This document shows, piece by piece, positions 58,077 through 59,854 of a DNA stretch of 64,000 nucleotides (position 1 is its first letter; the number at the start of each line of letters is the position of its first letter). The translations under genes were made by a program, and so were the position numbers. The notes under the pieces were generated by a model, which ran no database searches, was not told the origin of the DNA, and saw only the letters and a list, made by a program, of their open reading frames with translations. Source of the stretch: Sanguibacter gelidistatuariae (lineage in GTDB: Bacteria; Actinomycetota; Actinomycetes; Actinomycetales; Cellulomonadaceae); NCBI RefSeq assembly GCF_900096585.1, contig NZ_FMYH01000008.1, positions 1 through 64,000 of the forward strand. Direction: 5' to 3'.

Positions 58077-59057
58077 CTAGAAGTTCCAGTCCTCGTCCTC
58101 GGTGTTCACGGCCTTGCCGATCACGTACGACGAGCCGGACCCGGAGAAGAAGTCGTGGTTCTCGTCGGCGTTGGGGCTCAGCGCCGAGAGGATCGCCGGG
58201 TTGACGTCCGTCTCGTCCTTGGGGAAGAGCGCCTCGTAACCGAGGTTCATGAGCGCCTTGTTGGCGTTGTAGCGCAGGAACTTCTTGACGTCCTCGGTCA
58301 GCCCGACGCCGTCGTAGAGGTCCGCGGTGTACTGGACCTCGTTCTCGTACAGCTCGAAGAGCAGCTCGAAGGTGTAAGCCTTCATGTCATCCCGCTCGGC
58401 CTGGGTGAGCTTCTCCAGACCCTTCTGGTACTTGTATCCGATGTAGTACCCGTGCACGGCCTCGTCGCGGATGATCAGGCGGATGAGGTCGGCCGTGTTC
58501 GTCAGCTTGGCGCGGCTGGACCAGTACATCGGCAGGTAGAAGCCGGAGTAGAAGAGGAAGGACTCGAGCAGCGTCGAGGCGACCTTGCGCTTGAGGGGAG
58601 AGTCGCCGTGGTAGTACTTCAGGACGATCTCGGCCTTGCGCTGCAGGTTGACGTTCTCCTCCGACCAGCGGAATGCCTCGTCGATCTCGGAGGTGGTGTT
58701 CAGCGTGGAGAAGATCGAGGAGTAGCTCTTGGCGTGGACCGACTCCATGAACGCGATGTTCGTGTAGACGGCTTCCTCGTGCGGGGTGATCGCGTCGGGG
58801 ATGAGACTGACTGCACCGACGGTCCCCTGGATCGTGTCGAGCAGCGTCAGACCGGTGAAGACACGGGTCGTCAGCTCCTTCTCGGCCGGCGTCAGGGTCG
58901 CCCAGGACTGGATGTCGTTGGACACCGGCACCTTCTCGGGCAACCAGAAGTTCCCGACAAGACGGTCCCAGACCTCAAGGTCCTTGTCGTCCTCGATGCG
59001 GTTCCAGTTGATCGCCTGGACACGGCTGACCAGCTTGAGCTTTCCGGTGGGGCTCAT
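58077..59057 (-). CDS. nrdF: class Ib ribonucleotide reductase beta subunit NrdF
   Basis: This 326-residue subunit carries the dimetal-tyrosyl radical cofactor. Visible are the ligand helices ([64 protein letters not shown]) and a C-terminal tail EDEDWNF that docks on NrdE. Length and sequence fit NrdF, not NrdB. The ATG at 59057 overlaps the homing-endonuclease stop (TGATG); GTG 59060 is an alternative. Its ribosome site lies inside the upstream endonuclease gene. Confidence 0.97.
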
Positions 59058-59854
59058 CACTGCTTCTCACTTTCTGACGAATTCTCGTCCGACACAGCAC
59101 TTTCACGACAGAACTTGCATATAGGGCTCACCACACCTTTGTTGGTGTGGTATCTAGTGTGAGCACTCCGAACACTCGACGGCTTCGGTACGCCTTTTTG
59201 CGCTGCCGACTGCAGAGCTCGGGTCTCCGAACTCGCCGTCTTGCCGAAGTTGGGATTCAGTGGGCCCGTGCGACCTTCCGAGAGAAGTCGCCTGGACTCA
59301 GCTGAGAGTACTCGACCGAAGGACGGGTGATCTGGACCAAAGCGACCGAAGTTGGGGTTGTCGGGACCGACATTCGTCCCCCGACGCGACTCCGACCACG
59401 TTTGGCGTTGCTCATCGGTATGCGAGTGTCCAAAGAAGGGATTGAGGTCACCTGGTCGGCTGACCCCAGGGCGGTCCGTCGAGCGAATCCGTGCGGCCTC
59501 ACGCTGGGCATCCGTCCACACCACTCCCGTCGGGCCAAGCCCTCCCTCAGACAAATTGAGGAGGTCGTGCCCTGCCTCCCGAAGTTGTGAAATCCAGAGA
59601 CACTCTGCCTTCCCCAGCTCCGCCAAATCGCCCGTGATCGTCTCAAGGACGTCAACAACCAACTCGGCGCGACCGTGCTTCCTGAGCCAGTCATAGAACG
59701 GCGTCTTCCGCCCATCTCTGGCGTTCCGCAGATGCTGCAAGAAACGCCGCCGAGCGCCCTTGGTCGTGATGCCGACATAGCGAAACTCTGCTGAAAGACG
59801 CAGGCGAATCCCGTAGACGACTCCGACAACCTCAGGCACCTCGGCGGCGATCAT
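59057..59854 (-). CDS. freestanding GIY-YIG homing endonuclease with NUMOD3 motifs
   Basis: This 265-residue protein has a GIY-YIG nuclease domain (VVYGI at 12-16, YVGIT at 26-30, Arg35-37, catalytic Glu84 in [16 protein letters not shown] at 100-105). Four NUMOD3 DNA-binding repeats follow ([50 protein letters not shown]) and a C-terminal finger-like HTRYHTNKG ... CKFC. It is precisely placed between nrdE and nrdF: 16 bases after the nrdE stop and a TGATG overlap with nrdF. The DNA is less GC-rich than its neighbours (27 of 60 at 59101-59160), a sign of recent transfer. It should cut at an unoccupied nrd site and spread by repair. Confidence 0.9.
59131..59150. repeat. 7-bp-arm stem-loop inside the endonuclease gene
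   Basis: CCACACC (59131-59137) and GGTGTGG (59144-59150) flank TTTGTT. It lies about 75 bases upstream of the nrdF start in the mRNA and could influence nrdF translation or RNA processing, though it also encodes part of the finger-like motif. Confidence 0.5.

Follow-up and report, generated by a model that had tools for sequence, protein, structure and literature searches.

The nrd locus and its putative endonuclease gene

Between nrdE and nrdF, the class Ib ribonucleotide reductase (RNR) genes of Sanguibacter gelidistatuariae, lies an additional gene that is described here as a putative homing endonuclease gene (HEG). The stretch of DNA analysed, referred to as the window, comprises positions 1 to 64,000 (64,000 nucleotides) of contig NZ_FMYH01000008.1 (assembly GCF_900096585.1), and the gene order on its minus strand is nrdH-nrdI-nrdE-HEG-nrdF. 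Two aspects of this element are new: its family is fixed at one chromosomal address across an order which, from the named relatives, we take to be the Micrococcales, and the end of nrdE is recoded in an allele-specific manner in three groups of carriers. The features of the locus are as follows.

59057..59854, minus strand: HEG, a free-standing GIY-YIG endonuclease open reading frame (ORF) of 265 aa with an ATG start (ORF list, profile matches, alignment conservation)
59555..59830, minus strand: GIY-YIG catalytic domain, about residues 9-100 (Y14, Y26, R37, H41, E84, N100; conservation in the alignment)
59207..59452, minus strand: NUMOD3-type repeats spanning roughly residues 135-216, in which four [NH]PxFG motifs can be seen by eye (Pfam and I-TevI chain match)
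59108..59161, minus strand: C-terminal H-x3-H-x9-C-x2-C finger, residues 232-249 (invariant residues in the alignment)
59855..59870, minus strand: spacer of 16 bp from the nrdE stop to the HEG start (sequence)
59055..59059, minus strand: TGATG, the HEG stop overlapping the nrdF start (sequence)
59874..59903, minus strand: final 30 nt of nrdE, whose sequence is recoded in many of the occupied alleles (allele comparison)
59890-59897, minus strand: GAAAATTG within the nrdE tail of the window (sequence)
59871..62099, minus strand: nrdE, class Ib large subunit, with a listed GTG start; the true start may be further in (profiles)
58077..59057, minus strand: nrdF, class Ib small subunit (profiles)
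61985..62401, minus strand: nrdI (profile search)
62453..62695, minus strand: nrdH glutaredoxin (Pfam Glutaredoxin; called nrdH because of its operon position)

The arrangement given in a preliminary description of this DNA holds: the GIY-YIG ORF begins 16 bp after nrdE, and its TGA (59059-59057) and the ATG of nrdF (59057-59055) have one A in common. The flanking genes are of class Ib, as had also been stated, with nrdE matching TIGR04170 at 1256 bits and nrdF matching TIGR04171 and NF010573, the models being covered fully or nearly, and a PF02867 search of the window's genome finds one large RNR subunit only, the nrdE beside the HEG. No RNA family reaches the Rfam gathering score in 57000-63500, and therefore no known intron surrounds the HEG, which is an ORF of its own, lying in neither a known intron family nor an intein, with full-length NrdE and NrdF as neighbours.

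The significant profile-library matches of the HEG protein are homing endonucleases, among them PHROG 314 (homing endonuclease, 1e-16), the PADLOC HEase profile and TIGR01453 (group I intron endonuclease, 8.7e-14, 52.1 bits, under the NCBI cut-off of 56.05). The only solved chain matched by sequence is the DNA-binding domain of I-TevI (1i3j/1t2t, E 0.018). Where four NUMOD3 repeats had been described, the domain itself is secure (3.4e-14 in Pfam, and matched by all 35 aligned relatives), but Pfam accepts one stretch only and the count of four depends on [NH]PxFG motifs seen by eye at residues 138, 166, 176 and 200. The GIY-YIG match of the window protein falls under the Pfam cut-off (E 0.035; 14.9 vs 22.6 bits), which counts against the assignment; 24 of the 35 aligned relatives match at E <= 0.01, the window protein not among them. 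Residues Y26, R37, H41, E84 and N100 are invariant in 35/35, and Y14 is kept in at least 90%. Conserved Arg, Glu and Asn have a catalytic role in GIY-YIG enzymes, according to passages of PMC2988022, and the assignment of HEG residues to this motif is our reading of the alignment. The terminal His/Cys finger noticed earlier is a real pattern, H232, H236, C246 and C249 being invariant in all 35 proteins. As judged from sequence, the protein has a GIY-YIG nuclease core and a modular NUMOD DNA-binding region, and the gene is very probably a homing-type element. Two more specific classes were ruled out: a group I intron endonuclease (TIGR01453 score under the cut-off, no intron by Rfam) and a MobE-type RNR-operon endonuclease (no HNH domain, Pfam giving only NUMOD3 and GIY-YIG).

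A single address, its distribution and age

HEG relatives that match most of the protein, with identities from about 39% upwards, lie directly 3' of nrdE wherever the locus was parsed, in Micrococcales chromosomes, in two Mycolicibacterium and in some phage nrdHIEF operons. Among the first 42 loci, which include seven second fetches of the same genomes, the HEG follows nrdE in all 42 and nrdF comes next in 41, the exception being Mycolicibacterium vanbaalenii BC8_1, in which nrdF lies about 7 kb beyond the HEG; the second Mycolicibacterium (L263) carries a copy after nrdE that is 77% identical. The HEG start, with start codons of our choosing, is mostly no more than 40 nt behind the nrdE stop, and in many carriers the HEG stop overlaps or closely precedes the nrdF start. 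Among contigs of named genomes, a scan recovered 27 loci, distributed over Arthrobacter, Cellulomonas, Cellulosimicrobium, Isoptericola, Promicromonospora, Agromyces, Microbacterium, Leucobacter, Herbiconiux, Glaciibacter, Glutamicibacter, Sanguibacter and one Mycolicibacterium.

Protein searches found the HEG in 2/6 genomes of the window's genus, 15/221 of its family, 13/396 drawn from the order (one a weak match away from nrd) and 24/198 of an Arthrobacter-like genus, counting a split copy, a copy interrupted by an in-frame TAA and a weak match of 44 aa. In a phylum draw of 396 genomes, with six candidates scored per genome, the window itself was the only match at E <= 1e-10, and no plasmid carried the HEG at E <= 1e-5. 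Weak or short matches away from nrd (L114 at 25%, L124 at 33%, L146 at 43% over 42 residues) were regarded as other endonucleases and dropped.

The fixed site shows both occupied and empty alleles among relatives. Four of the six genomes of the genus are without the HEG by search, which, with its own ORF, its site specificity and its overlap with the nrdF start, bears out the earlier characterization as a free-standing homing-type nuclease gene. The comparison of junctions in relatives that had been proposed yields HEG-free alleles, and it is not the case that all relatives carry the gene. nrdF was found in 206/221 family genomes, and the empty junctions parsed there have nrdE-nrdF gaps of 17-319 bp, against about 790-870 bp at occupied chromosomal junctions. 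Within the window's genus an empty allele (G005) and an occupied one (G002) have GAGAGAGACGAA-CGATGACCCCCAC in common to past the nrdF start, with one mismatch, so that in G002 host leader sequence makes up the last HEG codons. Most empty alleles of Arthrobacter have AGGGGATGACATG as their nrdF start context, and the HEG 3' end stands in its place in carriers. Two copies are decayed, one by an in-frame TAA (G243) and one by a split frame (G705).

This locus-specific family, in which catalytic residues are conserved and nrdE and nrdF are intact, is under purifying selection: the median ratio of nonsynonymous to synonymous divergence (dN/dS) is 0.10 in Arthrobacter (206/210 pairs usable, 21 copies) and 0.25 in Cellulomonadaceae (99/105 pairs usable, 15 copies). 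A lower GC content had been read in the preliminary description as a sign of recent arrival. The HEG is indeed lower in GC than the window (0.598 vs 0.694), and in GC at third codon positions (GC3) it stands at 0.647 vs 0.934 and 0.945 for nrdE and nrdF, but its overall GC is hardly below theirs (0.622 and 0.616), and their very high GC3 looks like codon bias. In all usable pairs the HEG is more diverged than nrdE at silent sites, a result in keeping with codon bias in nrdE (GC3 0.93-0.99 in Cellulomonadaceae), and in ten Arthrobacter the median silent divergence (pS) of the HEG is 0.605 vs 0.581 for nrdI, the two being correlated (rho 0.78). With a GC near that of its neighbours, dN/dS values of this size and silent divergence above nrdE and about that of nrdI in Arthrobacter, where it is not below nrdI, recent arrival as read from GC was rejected; the HEG is old in several families.

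The HEG tree is largely ordered by family, with many weak branches; Mycolicibacterium stands beside Arthrobacter, and Herbiconiux outside the other Microbacteriaceae. The two Sanguibacter-like HEGs already group together (unstarred support 86), and the window copy therefore gives no sign of transfer between genera. On the best 195-row nrdE tree, built with the tail removed, occupancy changed at least 36 times, a count that does not distinguish gain from loss and that also includes branches without support. The trees exclude L113, L125, L042, L032 (a duplicate of L258) and rows with <990 nt of nrdE, including L152, L166 and six Agromyces carriers. In these lineages, then, the HEG is an old element whose patchy distribution is explained by gain and loss.

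Relatives of the HEG are also found in viral sequences. Among the best 80 of 225 viral matches, 9/79 new viral loci hold a relative between their own nrdE and nrdF at 39-55% identity (one fragmented, one ending before nrdF), with L113 and L125 in addition; the other 70/79 have no nrd gene in the stretch examined and more distant or partial matches. Several viral contigs with a relative, at just 4-9 kb, are possibly host DNA. In L183, a 158-kb viral contig, the relative lies between nrdE and nrdF of a phage nrdHIEF operon, and L125, Arthrobacter phage Talia1610 (PQ559666), has a diverged relative at the same address in its nrdHIEF operon, gp111 (34.5% identity over 94%), annotated as a G-I-Y Y-I-G endonuclease; its nrdE tail is not of the GAAAAY kind discussed below. 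Such phage operons are a possible vehicle between hosts. L113 (IMG/VR, 4606 bp), listed as viral, is a stretch of nrd operon with HEG and several broken frames, and is probably host DNA with sequencing errors.

Recoded nrdE tails and a proposed homing cycle

The last 30 or so nt of nrdE, which hold the codons of the redox CxxC, are recoded in occupied alleles of three groups: Arthrobacter, Cellulomonadaceae and, with few carriers, Mycolicibacterium. The empty alleles compared were not drawn at random: the Arthrobacter ones belong to the 30 strongest of the 100 genomes matched by the NrdF of one carrier; those of the family were taken from the best 30 plus 40 hand-picked, of 206; and those of Mycolicibacterium and Agromyces from the best 30 of 57 and of 58. 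Merging of identical junctions reduced 173 to 147. Consensus tails were built from empties, which favours empties, and the control segments were handled alike. Two loci with another insert (L152 and L166, see below) were not counted as empty for the 15-mer and the tail distance, and were counted for GAAAAYTG and the segment distances.

The association is most pronounced in Arthrobacter, where carrier tails lie 8.3 of 30 nt from the empty consensus (26 carriers) vs 2.8 (22 empties; p 8e-8), and the exact 15-mer TGCGTCAGCTGCATG (CVSCM) is kept in 2/26 carriers vs 16/22 empties. The difference stops sharply about 27 nt from the nrdE stop, and the distances upstream are 1.1 vs 0.9 (-60..-30) and 1.3 vs 0.9 (-90..-60). 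Over the final ten codons, carriers and empties of Arthrobacter are a mean codon-use distance of 0.41 apart, where none of 300 label shuffles exceeded 0.29, and over the preceding ten 0.04; the Cellulomonadaceae values are 0.30 for the final ten (shuffles up to 0.20) and 0.23 for the preceding ten (shuffles averaging 0.15 and reaching 0.24). The motif GAAAAYTG occurs in 14/26 Arthrobacter carriers vs 2/24 HEG-free alleles, those two holding the second insert; in 9/15 Cellulomonadaceae carriers vs 0/65 empties; and in both Mycolicibacterium carriers vs 3/28 HEG-free alleles. Overall a loose tail core is intact in 90/115 empties vs 2/56 carriers, one of these two being the carrier whose HEG has the TAA; ten of the 56 are Microbacteriaceae, whose empty relatives mostly lack the loose core too.

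Shared ancestry was handled by independent tree pairs. In 22 pairs an altered tail (at least 5 changes) went with occupancy in 10.9 and against it in 0.1, with no difference in 11.0 (median p 0.001); at a threshold of at least 7 changes the values were 9.8, 0.0 and 12.2 (p 0.002), without Microbacteriaceae (16 pairs) 10.0, 0 and 6.0 (p 0.002), and without Agromyces empties (20 pairs) 14.1, 0.0 and 5.9. Tails of empty alleles are alike across families (0.82-0.85), whereas occupied tails are less so (0.71-0.77) and come in variants (ENC with GAAAAY, SVE with TCC, SCAL with TGTGCN), and carriers have therefore left the common sequence in several ways. The codons that contrast empty with occupied types include -8/-7 (GAGGGY vs GAAAAY) and -4 (AGC vs TCN).

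The best overall explanation, and one we regard as probable from these comparisons, is that the HEG lives at one address, the nrdE 3' end, by means of a homing cycle. In this cycle the HEG protein would bind and cut the nrdE 3' end of alleles without HEG, and repair from an occupied allele would copy the HEG in behind the nrdE stop codon; the HEG would then ride on the nrd transcript, its 3' end giving nrdF its start context. The first two steps follow the standard scheme for free-standing enzymes, as outlined in parts of PMC2988022 and PMC3984707, and a GIY-YIG enzyme would be expected to leave a 2-nt 3' overhang (a passage of PMC2988022). An occupied allele would need an nrdE tail that the enzyme cuts poorly, achieved by recoding with most NrdE residues kept; such protection by sequence change is called for because the HEG adjoins its predicted target and does not split it. 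The preliminary description had the enzyme cut the joined nrdE-nrdF junction. The cutting of alleles that lack the gene is retained here, and the predicted target has moved to the nrdE 3' end: the determinant is placed on the nrdE side because in Mycolicibacterium the HEG follows nrdE without an adjoining nrdF, and at its very end because the sharpest allele-specific changes fall in the last 30 or so nt. We infer cutting, homing, the exact target and a role of recoding in immunity from these patterns of alleles, and the more particular claim, that the target lies in the 3' end of nrdE and that recoding protects occupied alleles, is put forward tentatively, as somewhat short of probable.

Known systems offer partial parallels. 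The T4 Seg endonucleases (e.g. SegF, SegG) are, like the HEG, free-standing, intergenic GIY-YIG enzymes, and for several T4 free-standing enzymes the tabulated target is the neighbouring gene (insertion sites and targets in Table 1 of PMC2988022). They are, however, phage genes with cut sites hundreds to thousands of bp away, according to passages of the same source, whereas the HEG family is mostly chromosomal with an abutting candidate target. The nearest published arrangement found is that of phage MobE between nrdA and nrdB: MobE of T4 and Aeh1 is free-standing in an RNR operon, between these genes or inside nrdA, and is promoter-less, its translation having been suggested to be coupled (passages of PMC2988022 and PMC3653736). 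MobE is an HNH enzyme among class Ia genes of phages, in contrast to a GIY-YIG enzyme between class Ib nrdE and nrdF on bacterial chromosomes. I-TevI combines a GIY-YIG domain with a NUMOD3-type DNA-binding region, as the HEG does, and cuts 23-25 nt from its own insertion site over a 38-bp site (a passage of PMC2988022), a geometry similar to that of a cut in the last 30 or so nt of nrdE; I-TevI is intron-encoded, unlike the HEG, which is without a known intron family. An I-TevI-like CNNNG motif in the tail did not cleanly separate empty from occupied alleles (0.41 vs 0.04 at -25, 0.56 vs 0.36 at -19) and was not used.

Free-standing homing endonucleases are described mainly from phages in the literature consulted. 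Searches of open-licence PMC papers listed no title or abstract opening on a free-standing endonuclease between bacterial nrdE and nrdF, and homing endonuclease with nrdE and actinobacteria gave 0 results. The locus provides a natural series of chromosomal alleles in sequenced species, dozens occupied, some decayed and many more empty; it comes with a short candidate target and with possible immunity changes in an essential gene, and a homing cycle outside introns could be measured with it in bacteria. It may also account for the odd codon use with which nrdE ends.

Co-conversion and other readings

Several results weigh against a tail recoded for immunity, or against the homing cycle as drawn. 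Six Agromyces carriers of 30 loci have tails like non-carriers, and Microbacteriaceae contribute nothing to the pair test; CTTT at codon -7, in 4/10 Microbacteriaceae carriers vs 0/24 empties, hints at a tail change there, having been noticed after the fact. The segment just upstream differs mildly too, with -60..-30 distances of 5.6 vs 3.9 in Cellulomonadaceae and 4.5 vs 3.4 in Mycolicibacterium (at -90..-60, 1.8 vs 1.5 and 0.5 vs 1.1), and as a control in the pair test -60..-30 leans the same way (6.5 vs 2.2, p 0.29; -90..-60, 1.7 vs 2.8, p 1). In Arthrobacter about the first eight nrdF codons also differ between carriers (e.g. L020-L035) and empties (L149-L163), in a comparison made without label shuffles and in which two of the counted triplets precede the ATG. 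T4 free-standing enzymes cut far away, and the HEG cut site could therefore lie elsewhere. Silent divergence of the HEG tracks that of nrdI in Arthrobacter, and recent spread is therefore not visible.

Recoded tails also occur without the HEG. Three HEG-free Mycolicibacterium (L262, L270, L279) carry the carrier-type GTGGAAAATTGC tail with GAAAAYTG, and Arthrobacter junctions with a second, unrelated insert retain the 15-mer in 3/12 vs 16/22 empties (p 0.012). These HEG-free alleles may be scars of a lost HEG; a small search found no convincing HEG remnant in L152, L166, L262, L270 or L279 (best E 0.008 and 0.011). Across 40 carriers, with host relatedness removed, -60..-30 tracks HEG similarity (0.40, 0/500 permutations) and the tail does not (0.03, 165/500 permutations as high); within Arthrobacter this is reversed, the partial correlation being 0.30 for the tail (raw rho 0.40) vs -0.11 for -60..-30. 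From the second insert, the Mycolicibacterium alleles and HEG similarity it follows that recoding goes with occupancy of the junction, for which immunity is one reading and co-conversion another.

The second insert is an element in its own right. It fills nrdE-nrdF gaps of about 570-660 bp without HEG in 11/198 Arthrobacter-like genomes, as found with one DNA query, and in L152 (loci L152 and L320-L330, L320 being L166; e.g. L320:1504-1870). It has a covarying hairpin, with 11/85 predicted pairs changed on both sides in eight aligned copies, and tiny ORFs, MATVRRTIRRTIRITIRPM and MAKGSYRSAKTGRYVTPKYGKSHPSTTVKESK in one type and other small ORFs elsewhere. The inserts in L152 and L166 have no Rfam match up to E 1, no convincing Pfam match was found, and a 32-aa peptide has no phage match. 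It is possibly a mobile structured element that competes for the site. A wider proposal, in which a chromosomal, locus-bound homing family targets the CxxC codons, carriers repeatedly rewrite these codons to escape and the second structured insert needs or benefits from the same escape, is offered as a speculation that we consider possible. If it holds, codon choice at the active-site tail of a cellular ribonucleotide reductase, along with one or two of its residues, is shaped by homing elements.

The strongest competitor to protection by recoding is that the recoded tail is a passenger, a short stretch of donor nrdE co-converted each time the HEG moves and without protective effect. Two different inserts at the same site both with recoded tails, the early nrdF codons of Arthrobacter, the correlation of HEG and tail similarity within that genus, the behaviour of -60..-30 across the 40 carriers and the mild difference of this segment in Cellulomonadaceae are what co-conversion would predict. 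Against it, the tail itself fails to track HEG similarity over the same 40 carriers, and the Arthrobacter difference has a sharp upstream edge, although nrdE varies so little upstream that conversion would hardly show. A single common co-converted tail as sole explanation was rejected, because between families the occupied tails resemble one another less than the empty tails do; co-conversion in general is kept, as a possibility that is real and somewhat less favoured than protection by recoding.

It is unlikely that the HEG has been domesticated as a regulator of the nrd operon, for example one that represses or paces nrdF through translational coupling, its homing lost. The closeness of the HEG stop to the nrdF start in many carriers, the strong purifying selection and the largely family-wise tree would suit such a role, and I-TevI is a known autorepressor (a passage of PMC3943268). 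A regulator sits poorly, however, with absence from most relatives, nearly all of which have nrdF, with the Mycolicibacterium copy checked that has no nrdF behind it, with the toleration of decayed copies and with the retention of catalytic residues in nearly all copies.

Slightly less likely still is that the altered tail serves expression, AT-rich codons opening the mRNA before the HEG start for reasons unrelated to cutting. Occupied tails are AT-richer (GC 0.52 vs 0.60 and 0.54 vs 0.63), and replacing them with the empty consensus makes the predicted fold on average some 2 and 1 kcal/mol stronger; the difference is nonetheless small, and is absent or reversed in 5/21 and 5/15, amino acids are altered too (G to N, M to A), and the HEG-free Mycolicibacterium alleles have the same tail. 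That the HEG is a dead remnant of a phage nrd cassette gained with the whole operon is very improbable: phage operons do show the same arrangement, but the window NrdF is 95-97% identical to that of four HEG-free congeners, and the window ORF is unbroken, its family being under purifying selection.

Beside the nrd operon, by eye in the ORF list with no search made, are a heavy-metal P-type ATPase with a GMTCASC motif (54104-56374, minus strand) and a small metal-binding protein with GMTCGHC (57373-57585, minus strand).

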